Source: Candidatus Coproplasma stercoravium (GTDB lineage Bacteria; Bacillota; Clostridia; Christensenellales; Borkfalkiaceae). Taken from it: a stretch of 64,000 bases of DNA. Position numbers and translations under genes: made by a program. Positions within the stretch are counted from its first letter, which is position 1, and each line of letters starts with the position of its first letter. The notes below the pieces were generated by a model. It ran no database searches. It was not told the DNA's origin and worked only from the letters and a program-made list of their open reading frames with translations. Location of the stretch: the NCBI GenBank assembly GCA_018713165.1, contig DVFR01000032.1:1-64000 (forward strand). Reading direction: 5' to 3'. Of the stretch, positions 17,494 to 63,853 are shown piece by piece.

Positions 17494-20400
17494 TTAGCGA
17501 CGTAAAATGGATATTGTAACCTTTTCGCCGTTGATGTTCTGCTCCTTTGAGTACGCGCCTTCGGGAGCGGAGCCCTCGGTTACGGAGTCGGCAAGCACGT
17601 CCTTTGCAAAACCGGCAGCGGCGAATACCTTTGCCGCCCTTCCTTCACCCTTGTAGAATACGGCAATGCGGTCGGTAACTTCAAAACCCGCCTCCTTGCG
17701 CATATTCTGAATTTTAGAGACGATTTCACGCTCCACGCCCTCGTCAATCAGCTCTTCGGTGAGCACGGTGGAGAGCGCGACGGTTACGCCCTTGTCGGAC
17801 TGGGCGACGTAGCCGTTTGCGCTTTCGGTGAAAATCTGCAAATCTTCAAGCTTTAAGCTTACGCCGAGCCCGGAAACCTCGTATTCGCCGTCTGCGCGAA
17901 TCTTAGCCACAACCTCGTCGGCATTGCACTCCGAAAGGAACTTTGAAATTGCGCCGAGCAGCTTGCCGTATTTGGGGCCGAGCGTTTTGAGCTGGGGCTT
18001 TAACTTGTACTTTATATAAACCGAGGCGTCGTTTGCCACCGTCATCTTTTTGACGTTGAGCTCTTCAAGCACAATCGACTTCTCTTCATCGGAGAGAGCA
18101 AGAGGCTTTTCGGAGACCACCACCATCTCTGCAAGCGGCTGGCGGTTCTTTAAGTTGCCCGCGTTGCGCGCCGACCTGCCGTTTACGACGATATCGGTAA
18201 CGCCCTCCATTCCGCGCTCGAGCTCCTCGTCGATGAGGCTCTCGTCGGGCTCGGGGAAGCGGCAGAGATGGACGGATACGGGCGCCTCTTTAAAGAACTG
18301 CGGCACGAGATTCGAATACATCATCTCGGCGACGAAGGGCGTGTAGGGCGCAGTAACCTTTGCAAGCGTTACGAGCACGGTATAGAGCGTAGTGTATGCA
18401 GCCGCCTTGTCGTCGGTCATGTCGCTGCCCCAGAAACGGTCGCGGCAGCGGCGAACGTACCAGTTGGAGAGTATGTCGTCAAATTCCTGAATGGCGCGCG
18501 AGCTCTCGGTTATCTCGTAGCGCGCGAGGTGCTCGTCGACGAGCTTTACAAGGCTGTTGAGTTTGGAGAGTATCCACTTGTCCATCAGCGAGAGCTTGCA
18601 GTCTTTTAAGCTGAATTTCGAGGGGTCGTACTTATCTATCTCGGCATACAGCGTGAAGAATGCATATGTGTTCCACAGCGTGCCGAGGTACTTGCGCTGT
18701 GCCTCAGACACGGCCTCTTCGTAGAACCTCGAAGGCAGCCAGGGGGCTGACGAAGTATAGAAGTACCAGCGCACCGCGTCGGCGCCCTGCTTGTCGAGCA
18801 CAGTCCAGGGGTCGACGACGTTGCCCTTGTGCTTAGACATTTTTATGCCGTTTTTATCGTTGACGTGGCCCAGAACTATGCAGTTTTTGAAGGGAGCCAC
18901 GCCGAAGAGAATGGTGTTTATTACGAGTAAGGTATAGAACCAGCCGCGCGTCTGGTCGACTGCCTCGGAGATAAAGTCTGCGGGGAAGGTCTCCTTGAAG
19001 AGGTCGGCGTTTTCAAACGGGTAGTGATACTGCGCGAACGGCATGGAGCCCGAGTCGAACCAGCAGTCGATAACTTCGGGCGTGCGTTTCATCCTGCCGC
19101 CGCACTTGGGGCAGGTGCACGTTAAATTGTCGAGGTAGGGGCGGTGCAGCTCAATCTCCGCGTCTGGCGCGAGCCCGCACTTCTCTTTGAGTTCCGCCTT
19201 TGAGCCTATTACCTCAATCTCGCCGCAGTCGGGGCATACCCATACGGGGAGCGGAGTGCCCCAGTACCTGTCGCGCGAGAGACCCCAGTCTATCACGTTT
19301 TCAAGGAAGTTGCCCATTCTGCCCTCTTTTATGGTATCGGGCATCCAGTTTACCGAGCGGTTTGCCGCCTTTATGTCTTCCTTTACCTTGGTGACCTCTA
19401 TAAACCAGCTCGAACGGGCGTAGTATAAAAGGGGCGTATCGCAGCGCCAGCAGTGGGGATAGTCGTGCTCGAAGGGCACCACCTTAAAGAGCTTGCCGCC
19501 ATTTTCGAGCATTTCGATTATAACTTTATCCGCCTTTTTGGCAAACAGCCCGTTGAGAGCGGGAAATCTCTCGTCGAAGCAACCGCGCTCGTTGACGAGC
19601 TGAACCACGGGGAGGCCGTAGCGCTTGCCCACCTTGTAGTCGTCCTCGCCGAACGCGGGCGCAATGTGAACGACGCCCGTGCCGTCGCCCATGGTGACGT
19701 AGGTGTCGCATACAACGTAGTGAGATTTTATTTTTGCACTTGCGGGGGAAATGCGCTTAACTTCCGCCGTCGTCTCTTCAAACAGCGGCTCATATTCCAG
19801 CCTCTCCCACTCGCTGCCCTTCTTTTCGGCTATGACTTTATAGTCCTCAAAGAAGTTTGAAACGAGCGCTTTTGCAAGGATATATCTCGTGCCGTCGGAC
19901 TCAATCTCGACGTAGGGTTCGTCGGGGTTCATGCAGAGCGCAACGTTCGAGGGAAGAGTCCACGGCGTGGTCGTCCACGCAAGGATATAACGGTTTTCGT
20001 CGCCCTTTACCTTAAAGCGGGCGACTACCGAATTTTCTTTTACGAGCTTATAGCCCTGCGCAACCTCGTGCGAGGAGAGCGCCGTGCCGCAGCGGGGGCA
20101 ATAGGGCACGATTTTATGTCCCTTATAAAGCAGCCCTTTTTCGTGCATGGTCTTTAATGCCCACCACTCCGACTCTATATAGTTGTCGTCGTAGGTGACG
20201 TAGGGGTTCTCCATGTCCGCCCAGTAGCCTACGCGCTCGGACATGCGCTCCCATTCCCCCTTATACTTCCATACCGACTGCTTGCACTGTTTGATGAACG
20301 GCTCTATGCCGTACTTTTCGATGTCCTGCTTGCCGTCCATGCCGAGCATCTTTTCGACTTCGAGCTCGACGGGCAGACCGTGCGTATCCCAGCCTGCCTT

Positions 20401-20643
20401 GCGCAGTACGTGCCTGCCCTTCATAGTCTGGTAACGGGGAATGAGGTCTTTCATAACGCGCGTTAAAATGTGCCCGATGTGCGGCTTGCCGTTTGCAGTG
20501 GGAGGGCCGTCGTAGAAGGAGAACTCCTCCGCGCCCTCGTTTTGCTTTACCGACTTTTCGAATACGTCGTTGTCTTTCCAGAACTCAATAACTTCCTGCT
20601 CCCTTTGGGGGAAGTTTAAGGTTGTGTCGACCTTCTTATACAT
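17494..20643 (-). CDS. ileS: Isoleucyl-tRNA synthetase
   Basis: A class I synthetase with HIGH in GKPHIGHILTR and KMSKS as GIKMSKHKGNV. The large editing domain is present, and two CxxC pairs occur in the CP1/late region (VCPDCGEIE, CTCPKCGGRM). The length of 1049 residues and the segments around WWALKTMHEKGLLYKGHK place it with the longer IleS2-like type rather than the Bacillus IleS1 type. The true start is the ATG at 20643 with AAGGAG upstream; the track start lies inside the T-box leader. It charges tRNA-Ile and hydrolyses misacylated Val-tRNA. Expression should be controlled by the T-box immediately upstream. Confidence 0.95.
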   Translation of the reverse strand: MYKKVDTTLNFPQREQEVIEFWKDNDVFEKSVKQNEGAEEFSFYDGPPTANGKPHIGHILTRVMKDLIPRYQTMKGRHVLRKAGWDTHGLPVELEVEKMLGMDGKQDIEKYGIEPFIKQCKQSVWKYKGEWERMSERVGYWADMENPYVTYDDNYIESEWWALKTMHEKGLLYKGHKIVPYCPRCGTALSSHEVAQGYKLVKENSVVARFKVKGDENRYILAWTTTPWTLPSNVALCMNPDEPYVEIESDGTRYILAKALVSNFFEDYKVIAEKKGSEWERLEYEPLFEETTAEVKRISPASAKIKSHYVVCDTYVTMGDGTGVVHIAPAFGEDDYKVGKRYGLPVVQLVNERGCFDERFPALNGLFAKKADKVIIEMLENGGKLFKVVPFEHDYPHCWRCDTPLLYYARSSWFIEVTKVKEDIKAANRSVNWMPDTIKEGRMGNFLENVIDWGLSRDRYWGTPLPVWVCPDCGEIEVIGSKAELKEKCGLAPDAEIELHRPYLDNLTCTCPKCGGRMKRTPEVIDCWFDSGSMPFAQYHYPFENADLFKETFPADFISEAVDQTRGWFYTLLVINTILFGVAPFKNCIVLGHVNDKNGIKMSKHKGNVVDPWTVLDKQGADAVRWYFYTSSAPWLPSRFYEEAVSEAQRKYLGTLWNTYAFFTLYAEIDKYDPSKFSLKDCKLSLMDKWILSKLNSLVKLVDEHLARYEITESSRAIQEFDDILSNWYVRRCRDRFWGSDMTDDKAAAYTTLYTVLVTLAKVTAPYTPFVAEMMYSNLVPQFFKEAPVSVHLCRFPEPDESLIDEELERGMEGVTDIVVNGRSARNAGNLKNRQPLAEMVVVSEKPLALSDEEKSIVLEELNVKKMTVANDASVYIKYKLKPQLKTLGPKYGKLLGAISKFLSECNADEVVAKIRADGEYEVSGLGVSLKLEDLQIFTESANGYVAQSDKGVTVALSTVLTEELIDEGVEREIVSKIQNMRKEAGFEVTDRIAVFYKGEGRAAKVFAAAGFAKDVLADSVTEGSAPEGAYSKEQNINGEKVTISILRR

Positions 20644-20664
20644 AGATTTTAACTCCTTGCGGCG

Positions 20665-20940
20665 GCTTTTATAAAAAAATAAAGCACGCGTTATTTCGGA
20701 CACCGAAAACGAGTGCTTGTAAACCACCAAAACAAACTGATATTTGCCATAACTTGTAACGGGTTATGAATCCGTATTCTCTTACTTGCCCGCATCGCAC
20801 CAAAAGCATGGGTCGCGGCAGAGGCTTTCTGAAAATAAGCTGGGAGGTGATATCCTGAAAAACTCCCCTGCCCTCTCACACCTGCCGCGGGCTCTCTGAA
20901 AGGGGAAGTAAAACGGCGTTGTCCTCCGTCGTCGCCTTTA
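20665..20940 (-). promoter_or_regulatory. Isoleucine T-box leader of ileS
   Basis: Transcript features in order: an AGAGAGCC...GGTGTGAGAGG Stem I pattern, a specifier loop with ATC (20851-20849, Ile codon) followed by ACC, an antiterminator bulge GGTGG (20728-20724), and a terminator stem (AAGCACTCG / CGCGTGCTT, 20718-20682) followed by a T run. Uncharged tRNA-Ile would stabilise the antiterminator. The T-box core GGTGGTTTAC is diverged from the usual GGTGGTACCGCG. Confidence 0.85.
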
Positions 20941-20959
20941 AATTAAATTGTATATTGCT

Positions 20960-59348: not shown

Positions 59349-59948
59349 TCAGTTCCCTTTCGCCTTTATCCCGACTATTGCCGTAACGCTCTTTTCGGGA
59401 ATCATCAAATCGCCGTCGGTTAAAGTTACGCCTATGTTTTTGGTGACCGAAAGCGCGGGGAAAATTTCGCGCTGGAGCTTTAAGGGCAAATCGCCGTAAC
59501 CGCAGGAAAAGCGCGGACGGGTGGAACCGTTTTCGGCAGTTATTATGCCGTTGACTTCGTCGCACCACTGCTCGACCGCGGCGGCACCCATTGCCTGCAA
59601 CACGACGGCGCGTGCGGGCGAAAGTCTGTTGTATTTTACAATCAGCCTGTCTACCCCCGCCCCGACGGTAGCCGCGAAGAGCGCAATCTTTTCACACCCC
59701 GCGAGATTGCGCGAAAGAGACCGGCTGTTGACCTTCGCAAAGCCGAGGTCGAGGAAGTCGCCTTCGCCGCGCGTGAGCGGAAACATTTCGTACACCGCCT
59801 TGGGTGCGAGCACGGGCATGAGCATACCCTCGCACTCCGCAAGGAGCTGTTCTATCCCCTCAACGCTCTTTACGCCCGCGTAGCCGAGATAGCGCAGGGT
59901 CTCCTTTATGTCGAGCTTTTCAATTCTGCCGCTTAAAATTTTTGCCAT
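59349..59948 (-). CDS. Methionine synthase activation domain protein (stand-alone)
   Basis: The 199 residues correspond to the Met_synt_B12 activation domain that, in long MetH, binds AdoMet and supports reductive methylation of inactive cob(II)alamin. RPRFSCGYGDLPL carries the RxxxGYG motif, and an N-terminal helical part precedes it (VDRLIVKYNRLSPARAV). It lies between metF and metH, so it serves MetH in trans. Stand-alone forms occur in other Clostridia. Confidence 0.85.
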   Translation of the reverse strand: MAKILSGRIEKLDIKETLRYLGYAGVKSVEGIEQLLAECEGMLMPVLAPKAVYEMFPLTRGEGDFLDLGFAKVNSRSLSRNLAGCEKIALFAATVGAGVDRLIVKYNRLSPARAVVLQAMGAAAVEQWCDEVNGIITAENGSTRPRFSCGYGDLPLKLQREIFPALSVTKNIGVTLTDGDLMIPEKSVTAIVGIKAKGN

Positions 59949-59951
59949 AGC

Positions 59952-60806
59952 TTAAATTATACCCGCAAGGTTGTCCTTTATCGCCTTTGCGACGTCGGGC
60001 TTGTTCATTGAATAGATATGTACCGCCTTTATGCCGTTGGCGTAGAGGTCAATCACCTGCTCGGTGGCGTATGCAACGCCCGCCTGGCGCATAGCCGCGG
60101 GATTATCGCCGAACCTGTCGACAATGCGTTTGAACTTTGCCGGAATGGGCGAGCCCGAGAGCGTGAAAGTGCGCTTTATCTGGGCGGCCCGCGTTATGGG
60201 CATAATGCCGGGAATAATCGGCACGGTTATGCCCGCAGAGTAAGCCTTTGCAAGGAAGCTGTAAAAGAGGTCGTTATCGAAGAACATCTGCGTGGTTAAA
60301 TAGTCGCAGCCCGCGTCGACCTTTCTTTTCAAGTTTTCTATGTCGGAAAAGAGCGTCTCCGACTCGGGGTGCCCCTCGGGGTAGCACGCGCCGCCTATGC
60401 AGAAGCCGCCGAACTCCTTTATCTCGGAAACAAGTTCGCTCGCGTATTTATATTCGAGGTTGCCCGCAAAATCTGCGGGGATATCTCCGCGCAGGGCGAG
60501 AATATTTTCGATACCCGCCTCTTTGAGCTGGACGAGCTTATCTTTTACGTCTGCCTTTGTGGAGGAAATGCACGAAAGGTGCGCGACGGAGTTTACGCCG
60601 AGCGCCTTTATCCCCTCGGAAATTTTTACGGTGTATGCCGAAGTGCCGCCGCCCGCACCGTAGGTCACGCTCATAAAGTCGGGCTTCAAAGCGGCGATTT
60701 CCTCCACCGCCTGCCACACGCCCTCGAACTTGTCGCTCGTTTTGGGAGGGAACACTTCGAAAGAGAGCACCGCACTCTTGCTCTTTAATATGTCTGTAAT
60801 CTTCAT
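59952..60806 (-). CDS. metF: 5,10-methylenetetrahydrofolate reductase
   Basis: A TIM-barrel flavoenzyme: LSFEVFPPKT at the start, DFMSVTYGAGGG, ALRGDIP, and QMFFDNDLFYSF with PIIPGIMPI. It makes 5-methyl-THF, the methyl donor for MetH. The ATG at 60806 has GGAAAG upstream; the track start is a TTG four codons earlier. 284 residues is normal. Its stop is three bases before the activation protein start. Confidence 0.94.
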   Translation of the reverse strand: MKITDILKSKSAVLSFEVFPPKTSDKFEGVWQAVEEIAALKPDFMSVTYGAGGGTSAYTVKISEGIKALGVNSVAHLSCISSTKADVKDKLVQLKEAGIENILALRGDIPADFAGNLEYKYASELVSEIKEFGGFCIGGACYPEGHPESETLFSDIENLKRKVDAGCDYLTTQMFFDNDLFYSFLAKAYSAGITVPIIPGIMPITRAAQIKRTFTLSGSPIPAKFKRIVDRFGDNPAAMRQAGVAYATEQVIDLYANGIKAVHIYSMNKPDVAKAIKDNLAGII

Positions 60807-60846
60807 AGGTCTTTCCAAAAAATATTAATTTTGGTTATTATATCAT

Positions 60847-60896: not shown

Positions 60897-61823
60897 TTAT
60901 TTGTTCTCAAACAACGAAGTCGAAAGATACCTGTCGCCGCTGTCGGGCAGGAGCACGACTATGCGCTTGCCTGCATTTTCCTCCCGCTCGGCAACCTTTC
61001 TCGCGGCAAACAGCGCCGCGCCCGAAGATATGCCCGTGAGGAACGCCTCTGTGCGGGCGAGGAATCTGCCCTCCGAAAGTGCCTCCTCGTCGGTCACGGT
61101 TATAACCTCGTCGTAGACGGAGGTATCGAGTGCCTTCGGCACGAAGCCGGCGCCTATGCCCTGTATGCCGTGCTTGCCTGCAACACCCTTTGAGAGCACG
61201 GGCGAGGCGGCGGGCTCCACGGCTATTATTTTAACGTCGGGAAAATGCTCTTTGAGCACCGAGCCCACGCCCGTTATCGTGCCGCCCGTGCCCACACCCG
61301 CGACGAAGAAATCGACCTTGCCCGCATCCTTTAAAATCTCCTGCGCGGTGGTCTTTCTGTGCGCCTCGGGGTTGGCTGGATTTTCAAATTGCCCCGCTAA
61401 TATGCTGCCTTCAATGGAGTTTTTAAGCTCCTCCGCCTTTTTTATCGCGCCCGACATTCCCTCTGCGCCGGGCGTTAACACAATCTCCGCGCCGTATGCC
61501 CTTATAAGCCTGCGCCTCTCCTCACTCATCGTCTCGGGCATGGTTAAAATCAGCTTATAGCCGCGCGCCGCGCACACGAGCGCAAGCCCTATGCCCGTAT
61601 TGCCCGACGTGGGCTCGATTATCGTGCCGCCCGCCTTTAAAAGTCCCTTTTCTTCGGCGTCGAGCACCATGTTGAGCGCTACCCTGTCCTTTACCGAACC
61701 CGCGGGGTTGAAATATTCGAGTTTTGCAATAATTTCGGCTTTGAGAGCGCGGCTCTTTTCGTATCTGTTCAGCCGCAACAGCGGCGTGCCGCCTATCAGT
61801 TCCGTTATGGAATTATATATCAT
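60897..61823 (-). CDS. cysK: Cysteine synthase A (O-acetylserine sulfhydrylase)
   Basis: PLP enzyme: [14 protein letters not shown] holds the PLP lysine, [13 protein letters not shown] the substrate loop, [12 protein letters not shown] the phosphate loop and SSGAALFAA the C-terminal loop. It forms cysteine from O-acetylserine and sulfide. The 308 residues are normal. GGAG precedes the ATG. It follows metY in the same direction with a 62-bp gap. A related cystathionine beta-synthase activity cannot be excluded. Confidence 0.94.
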
Positions 61824-61885: not shown

Positions 61886-63178
61886 TTATTTAACGGCGTC
61901 GAACGCCTGTTTCAGGTCGTCGAGTATATCGTCGATGTGCTCGGTGCCTATAGAAAGGCGCACGGTGGCAGAGGTGATTCCGCCCGCTTTGAGCCCCTCT
62001 TCGTCGAGCTGGGAATGGGTGGTCGACGCGGGGTGAATTACGAGAGATTTTACGTCGGCAACGTTGGCAAGCAGCGAAAAGAGCTTTAAACTTTCGGAAA
62101 ATTTAACAGCCTTTTCCCTTCCGCCCTTTATATCGAACGAGAATATCGAGCCGCCGCCGCGGGGCAGATATCTCTTATAAAGCTCGGCGCCCTTGCCCGT
62201 CGCGAGCGAGGGGTGGTTTACCTTTTCGACCTGCGGGCAGTTCTTTAAAAACTCCACTACTTTGAGTGCGTTTTCGACGTGCCTGTCTACGCGGAGGGGA
62301 AGCGTTTCCAGCCCCTGCAACAGAAGGAAGGAATTGAACGGAGAAAGCACCGCGCCCTGGTCGCGCAGAAGAGTAGTGCGCATTTTTAGGATATATGCGG
62401 CATTTCCGCCGACGTCGCTGAACACCACGCCGTGGTATGCGGGGTTGGGCTCGGTGATTCCGGGGAATTTGCCGCTTGCCTTCCAGTCGAACCTGCCGCC
62501 GTCGACTACTACGCCGCCCATCGCAGTGCCGTGCCCGCCCATGAACTTCGTCGCGGAGTGCACGACTATGTCGGCGCCGTGTTCGAGCGGACGGATAAGA
62601 TAGGGCGTAGCGAAAGTGGAATCGACTATGAAAGGTATGCCGTTCTCGTGCGCAATTCTTCCTATCGCCTCCATGTCAATCAGGTCGGAGTTGGGGTTGC
62701 CCATGCTCTCGGCATATATCAGTTTGGTGTTGGGCTGAATGGCCCTTCTGAAATTTTCGGGGTCGGTCTGGTCGACGAAGGTCGTCGTTATCCCCTGTTC
62801 GGGCAGGGTTACGGCGAGAAGGTTGTGCGTGCCGCCGTAGAGATTGCTCGCAGCAACGACGTGGTCGCCGCACTTTGCGATGTTCTGTATGGCGTAGGTA
62901 ATGGCGGCCGAACCGCTGGCAACGGCGAGCGCGCCCACGCCGCCTTCAAGCGCGGCAACGCGCTTTTCAAACACGTCGGTGGTGGGGTTTTGCAGGCGGG
63001 TATATATATTACCCTCCTCCTTCAAATCAAAACGCGCGGCAGCCTGCGCGCTGTTTTTGAACACGTACGAAGTGGTCATATATATGGGCACGGCGCGCGC
63101 GTCGGTTGCGGGGTCGGGCTGTTCCTGCCCTGCGTGTATTGCAAGCGTTTCGAACTTATAGGTCTTGTTTTTATCCAT
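61886..63178 (-). CDS. metY: O-acetylhomoserine sulfhydrylase (O-acetylhomoserine aminocarboxypropyltransferase)
   Basis: A Cys/Met-metabolism PLP enzyme of 430 residues, the size of MetY rather than MetB/MetC (about 380). [25 protein letters not shown] (spaced), [29 protein letters not shown] with the PLP lysine, and [12 protein letters not shown] are visible. It makes homocysteine directly from O-acetylhomoserine and sulfide, feeding MetH. AAGGAG precedes the ATG. It is the first structural gene after the attenuator leader described below. Confidence 0.94.
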
Positions 63179-63250: not shown

Positions 63251-63284
63251 AAAAAAGGCAGGCGCGCTGTTGAACGCACCTGCC
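63251..63284 (-). terminator. Attenuator hairpin before metY
   Basis: GGCAGGTGCG / CGCGCCTGCC (one G-U pair) with loop TTCAACAG, followed by T6. The loop and 3' arm can instead pair with the upstream segment 63328-63318. Confidence 0.9.
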
Positions 63285-63317
63285 CGGAAAAGACGATTTT
63301 TTGGCTGTGTGGCAAAA

Positions 63318-63328
63318 TTCAACGCACG
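63318..63328 (-). promoter_or_regulatory. Antiterminator arm in the met/cys leader
   Basis: CGTGCGTTGAA can pair with TTCAACAGCGCG (63274-63263): six pairs, one bulged A, then five pairs including one G-U. It begins four bases after the leader-peptide stop codon, so a ribosome at the stop would cover it. Confidence 0.75.
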
Positions 63329-63331
63329 ACG

Positions 63332-63406
63332 TTATTCCGCTGCATATCCATACATACAGCGGCACATCATTGCGTTTGAAATTATGCTTGAAACATTGCC
63401 TTTCAC
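63332..63406 (-). CDS. Met/Cys leader peptide (24 residues)
   Basis: GGAGG (63417-63413) lies six bases before a GTG start. The peptide has MMCRCM at positions 13-18 and ends in YGYAAE. Two-thirds of this short run are Met or Cys codons, placed where stalling would break a CCGCTG/CAGCGG hairpin (63362-63357 with 63342-63337) and leave the antiterminator arm free. It precedes an operon making cysteine and methionine. Too short for the ORF track. Its function as a control peptide is inference from this layout. Confidence 0.75.
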   Translation of the reverse strand: MKGNVSSIISNAMMCRCMYGYAAE

Positions 63407-63465
63407 AGCGCACCTCCGCGGAAGTTTCCGCAGGAATTTATACGGCTACAGCCGTCCTTAAAAGA

Positions 63466-63495
63466 ATAATACCACTTTACTTCGGGCGTTGTCAA
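63466..63495 (-). promoter_or_regulatory. Promoter of the met/cys leader and operon
   Basis: TTGACA (63495-63490), 18 bp, TATTAT (63471-63466). The transcript would begin near 63459, giving a leader of about 280 nt before metY. Confidence 0.8.
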
Positions 63496-63593: not shown

Positions 63594-63785
63594 TTAAAAC
63601 TTTTCCTGAAGCGCAGCCTGGAGAGATTCAACGTCCGCGGCGGTTGCCTTGGGAACGTTTATAACTACTTCCATGTTGCCCATATCGTAAGTGAGCTTCC
63701 AGCTTGCTTTGAGTTCTTTAACAGTGTAAACCCAACCGCCTATCTGGATTTTTCCGCTTTCGAGTACAGTTACGGGATACGACAT
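63594..63785 (-). CDS. Small hypothetical protein (63 residues)
   Basis: The ATG at 63785 follows AGGAG by eight bases, so the real product is MSYPVTVLESGKIQIGG onward, not the 94-residue track ORF. The predicted pattern is four short beta strands (VTVLESGKIQIGG, WVYTVKELKA, WKLTYDMGN, MEVVINVP) and a terminal helix (ATAADVESLQAAL). I do not recognise the family. A strong terminator shows it is a separate small gene. Confidence 0.75.
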   Translation of the reverse strand: MSYPVTVLESGKIQIGGWVYTVKELKASWKLTYDMGNMEVVINVPKATAADVESLQAALQEKF

Positions 63786-63853
63786 CTTTCCGTTCTCCTT
63801 AAAATATATTTTCACGCCCGCACGGGCGCAAATTGCATGGTTTTTAATTGGTT

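Follow-up and report, generated by a model that had tools for sequence, protein, structure and literature searches.

A conserved leader ahead of metY in Candidatus Coproplasma stercoravium probably acts as a trp/his-type transcription attenuator

In Bacillota, methionine and cysteine genes are usually controlled by the S-box (SAM-I) riboswitch or by the T-box. A 64,000-nucleotide stretch of Candidatus Coproplasma stercoravium DNA (contig DVFR01000032.1, hereafter the window) raises the question of what controls a methionine/cysteine operon whose leader appeared to hold neither element. The original prediction, made from the letters alone, had proposed a ribosome-mediated attenuator with a Met- and Cys-containing leader peptide. 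When the leader was searched against Rfam, no family matched, the SAM riboswitch (RF00162) and the T-box (RF00230) stayed below threshold, and weak sub-threshold matches fell on the terminator of the upstream gene, outside the leader. The absence of both elements from the leader was thus borne out, but the genome has both elsewhere: a SAM riboswitch lies before metK (G000:C31:13457-13552, L227; the only RF00162 match in the window's own genome), and T-box matches occur at other loci. A weak T-box match (42.7 bits, below the cut-off) was also seen at 20734-20941 of the window, minus strand, directly before an ORF (17494-20730) that resembles isoleucyl-tRNA synthetase.

The features of the locus are collected in Table 1. 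The TTGACA-N18-TATTAT promoter, the GGAGG-N6-GTG initiation site, the 24-codon frame, the T6 terminator and metY were all found where they had been predicted. The promoter matches at 11/12 positions, a TG precedes the -10 element, and comparison of the leaders in the genus showed that the homologues keep TTGACA and a TGGTATTATC-like -10. Behind the leader, the gene order on the minus strand is metY-cysK-metF-(199-aa ORF)-metH, and the operon products yield homocysteine, methionine and cysteine. The metH match to TIGR02082 (E 2e-138) is under the cut-off, which is set for the full-length model. NCBIfam gave no match for the 199-aa protein, which we take to be perhaps a methionine synthase activation part. 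Just upstream of the leader, a small protein (MSYPVTVLESGKIQIGGWVYTVKELK...) is encoded at 63594-63787, minus strand, and a near copy of it lies upstream of the G016 leader.

Table 1. Features of the leader and operon (window positions; all on the minus strand)
Feature	Position	Details
Leader region ahead of metY	63495-63251	promoter, short ORF, terminator
Sigma-70-type promoter	63466..63495	TTGACA (63495-63490)-N18-TATTAT (63471-63466)
Shine-Dalgarno (SD) site of leader ORF	63413..63417	GGAGG, from sequence; six-base gap to GTG 63406
Leader ORF	63332..63406	MKGNVSSIISNAMMCRCMYGYAAE and stop; 24 codons, GTG start
Codons Ala12-Met13-Met14-Cys15-Arg16	63359..63373	invariant core A-M-C-R across six homologues
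Strand 1	63364..63374	5' side of 1:2 helix; covers Met codons
Apical hairpin	63337..63362	CCGCUG...CAGCGG over Cys-Arg codons
Strand 2	63311..63332	partner of strand 1 via 63332-63323, or of strand 3
Strand 3	63269..63285	terminator 5' arm and loop, including invariant UUCAAC 63274-63269
Intrinsic terminator	63251..63285	13 pairs (63285-63256), loop of 4, T6 63256-63251
metY, O-acetylhomoserine sulfhydrylase	61886..63178	TIGR01326 above cut-off
cysK, cysteine synthase	60897..61823	TIGR01139 above cut-off
metF, methylenetetrahydrofolate reductase	59952..60818	TIGR00676 above cut-off
199-aa protein	59349..59948	by position, between metF and metH
metH, cobalamin-dependent methionine synthase, short form, 799 aa	56903..59302	TIGR02082

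A model of the leader found six true cases among 93 Candidatus Coproplasma genomes (the window, G015, G420, G003, G016 and G444), all ahead of metY. The six leader peptides are MKGNVSSIISNAMMCRCMYGYAAE, MKNLFSEAIKYAMMCRYIVTYIAE, MKNLISSAILYAMMCRYMYTYIAE, MKDCPTAIVLYAMMCRCMLCRTAE, MKALFFSAILYAAMCRFGLSAAE and MNNSTVKAISIHTAMCRYMYTYIAE; tested against NCBIfam, the leader peptides gave no meaningful match. An SD-like site at similar spacing and a terminator between the leader ORF and metY are present in 6/6. The start codon is ATG in two of the homologues, and the frame is kept at 23-25 codons, its length differences being multiples of three. A-M-C-R near the middle of the peptide and A-E-stop at its end are invariant; M13, C17 and M18 vary. 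Among matches near 30 bits, R1 match L033 was rejected as a terminator that follows a transporter gene, and R1 matches L239-L243 were rejected as being without the ATGTGCCG core. About half of the congeners having the same MetY type are without the leader; in G419, MetY is 91% identical, yet the leader is absent. Two leaderless Coproplasma metY promoters (L035 and L036) have GTTGCAAAT...GCGGCAGGGTGTATAAT in common, perhaps the site of another regulator.

Compared with dinucleotide shuffles, the leader folds far more stably (z -5.85). The hairpin CCGCTG/CAGCGG noted originally is real, but it proved to be the top of a longer helix that had been missed, in which 63374-63364 pairs with 63332-63323. 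The Met codons are therefore paired with bases immediately after the stop, giving the full set of 1:2, 2:3 and 3:4 pairings, which are mutually exclusive according to the predicted folds and pair counts. The pairing of 63328-63318 with 63274-63263 also exists, with one bulged A, but only its core is invariant in the homologues: GUUGAA and UUCAAC, the antiterminator, are kept in 6/6, and the intervening 30-45 bases vary. Strand 2 pairs with strand 3 through this GUUGAA (63323-63318) and UUUUGCC. Near the ribosome site, a GCGGAA/TTCCGC hairpin is present as described, but not conserved.

In the 1:2 helix, apical hairpin and terminator of the six sequences, 96.7% of cells hold standard pairs, compared with 94.1% after shuffling and at most 49% after sliding. 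Changes on both sides affect 4 pairs (5 such cells) in this small set of six sequences; they include three pairs of the apical hairpin and a compensatory GC to AU change in the G003 terminator, and no pair of helix 1. The antiterminator core, being invariant, cannot itself display covariation.

When the nascent RNA was folded as far as the terminator loop, a ribosome placed on the Cys codon gave a 2:3 pairing probability, P(2:3), of 0.88-0.99 in 6/6 leaders. Without a ribosome, P(2:3) was 0.00-0.23 in five of the six, in which the 1:2 helix blocks the antiterminator; the exception was G003, with 0.94 even then. With the ribosome at the stop, P(2:3) was about 0.5-0.64, strand 2 being masked only partly in the model. 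Since the equilibrium fold of the complete transcript is always the terminator, the switch must be kinetic, and in such a kinetic decision the window leader would resemble trp.

The leader is a real, conserved element, and it probably controls the metY-cysK-metF-metH operon by ribosome-mediated transcription attenuation of the trp/his type. The homologous leaders, conserved segments and predicted alternative folds support this logic; across the homologues, the short frame with Met/Cys codons, the terminator and the antiterminator are kept, and compensatory changes occur in the hairpin and terminator. From this anatomy, conservation, covariation and folding, we infer translation of the frame, a starvation signal, and termination together with its direction, as follows. 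A shortage of Met-tRNA or Cys-tRNA would halt the ribosome on strand 1, at its Met-Cys codons; strand 2, thus freed, would pair with strand 3 (GUUGAA/UUCAAC) before the 3' arm of the terminator is made, and polymerase would read through. Translation up to UAA would place the ribosome over most of strand 2 and allow the 3:4 terminator to form. If the ORF were untranslated, strand 2 would be held in the 1:2 helix and the terminator would likewise form. The modelled folds fit read-through under starvation and termination otherwise.

The Met and Cys codons in strand 1 match the amino acids that the operon produces. Dual sensing of Met and Cys, as first proposed, is plausible, but no more than one codon for each is invariant. 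Because the M-C-R codons sit in helices, part of their conservation is that of the RNA. One invariant base, the G at 63363 in the middle of the Cys codon, is unpaired, which is weak evidence for coding constraint.

The same RNA switch could be set by an arrest peptide, if the nascent chain with a ligand (Met, Cys or SAM) stalled the ribosome at M-C-R. The invariance of A-M-C-R would suit such a peptide, as would the leader peptides of the sister MetY clade, whose L-V-R-x-N-F-R-F-G-R-M shows arrest-like conservation. However, the N-terminal half is unconserved in the window clade: its codons differ by 13 synonymous versus 106 non-synonymous changes, and no purifying selection was found there on the peptide upstream of the stall site. 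The CGA-AUG codon pair, a signature of the wider family, is missing from this clade as well; the window leader reads GCA-AUG-AUG-UGC. Judged by these sequences, the leader peptide as such seems unimportant. Because its N-terminal part is not conserved, classical codon-sensing attenuation is the best reading, and we consider nascent-chain arrest unlikely.

A ligand-binding RNA, that is, an unknown riboswitch with an incidental ORF, would agree with the strong 1:2 helix and the long invariant stretches. We hold it to be very unlikely, as frame, SD, ATG/GTG start and stop survive three-base length changes, strand 1 is coding with a geometry that suits a ribosome, and Rfam offered no family. It is still less probable that the leader is a simple premature terminator or a processed 5' UTR without amino-acid sensing, with control at the promoter; several congeners do carry the same MetY type without a leader, but in that case neither the conserved Met-Cys codons nor an invariant antiterminator core within the terminator loop would have a purpose.

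The Coproplasma leader has neighbours of another kind. In the MetY tree, the Coproplasma clade adjoins a clade rich in leaders with an internal Arg-Met (R-M; support 99/93). Across the order, CGAATGTG was present in 43/78 metY upstream regions (0.7 in shuffles), and 56/78 (4.2 in shuffles) held a short ORF that has an SD and an Arg-Met within it. CGA precedes the Met codon in 54/61 R-M leader ORFs; the codon after Met encodes Cys in 33, is a stop in nine and encodes Trp in seven of the 61. A subgroup of 31 shares the peptide L-V-R-x-N-F/Y-R-F-G-R-M, in which synonymous changes are common; five different codons occur at the first Arg and five at the second, yet the third Arg is CGA in 31/31. 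A pattern search with the Arg codon left open (MGN) again returned CGA in 20/20 matches in the order. R-M leaders of metY with CGA include L128-L137, L139-L141, L154, L162, L170-L172, L177, L185 and others, with the subgroup LVRxNFRFGRM among them. Outside the order, the R-M peptide gave two matches among 349 genomes, each out of frame inside a long ORF, and no credible match to the R-M pattern was found elsewhere in the phylum; within the order, match L255 was rejected as a chance hit inside a polymerase-like gene.

Of the real leaders that the pattern search brought up, a single one does not precede metY: at L196:1465-1536, an R-M-type leader (MTDLLITLNRKNYRFGRMCCRWH) lies before an ECF-transporter S-component-like gene, and the promoter there carries an ACCTAC...TAGGT-like repeat. 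The terminator scan detected terminators in only 5/61 R-M leaders, the window included, so control in these leaders is probably translational. Pairing between CGAAUG and bases that precede the metY SD is clear in some families only. Cys sensing as an order-wide theme was rejected: Met can be followed by a stop or Trp codon (UGN), which makes Cys incidental there. Enrichment of Cys codons in leaders of cysK-bearing operons was not significant overall (p 0.20), and that of Cys near Met in such leaders (p 0.018, uncorrected for relatedness) was set aside. Leaders of a third type, with the peptide M-C-(C)-R-M-L-x-S-R-A, occur at metY in L159, L161, L164, L165 and L167; their CUCCCGGGCA segment can pair with the arm of a CCCGGGAG hairpin that lies downstream and resembles a terminator, making them further candidate attenuators at metY.

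The existence of conserved R-M leaders is well supported, and from its sequence the leader with the NFRFGRM motif is a candidate new arrest peptide. Only tentatively do we suggest a common history, in which the window leader would be a branch of an order-wide metY leader system, L-V-R-x-N-F-R-F-G-R-M, its most common form, a new CGA-AUG-dependent arrest peptide that reports methionine, and the Coproplasma form a derivative that lost the arrest motif and turned into a terminator switch that senses codons.

Among known systems, the trp, his, leu and thr attenuators (Rfam Trp_leader, His_leader, Leu_leader and Thr_leader) likewise have codons for the product amino acid in the leader ORF, alternative 1:2, 2:3 and 3:4 pairings and a U-run terminator. 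The window leader differs from them in its amino acids (Met and Cys), in having two or three such codons rather than a run, and in its Clostridia host; leaders of its type keep fewer cognate codons invariant than trp or his leaders. In Streptomyces lividans, the metL leader peptide MSTTSDRTPATEATTTPGARCMCRRMCAF, ending RCMCRRMCAF, precedes metNIQ (PMC8079986). It resembles the window leader in its Met/Cys-rich end with M-C-R and its place before a methionine operon, but it is actinobacterial, lies on a leaderless mRNA, has no typical intrinsic terminator reported and precedes transporter genes (PMC8079986). In the cys operons of Mycobacterium, too, sulfur genes are preceded by a short ORF that contains Cys codons, but the Cys runs are near the stop, without a terminator hairpin (PMC1262725). 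Within Firmicutes, leader-peptide attenuators exist for hisS/hisZ (PMC2965389), and a leucine-rich attenuator is reported from S. aureus (PMC5794164); both belong to the same mechanism class in Bacillota, but concern other amino acids and not metY. No metY leader-peptide attenuator was found in the literature searched, whose coverage excludes most subscription papers and preprints.

The attenuator would add Met/Cys synthesis to the few functions whose operons in Bacillota are under classical leader-peptide attenuation, in hosts that also possess SAM riboswitches and T-boxes. The window leader makes a compact example, in which a single Met codon and a single Cys codon are invariant. The order-wide metY leader peptides, with their arrest-like conservation and strict CGA-AUG pair, are directly testable.
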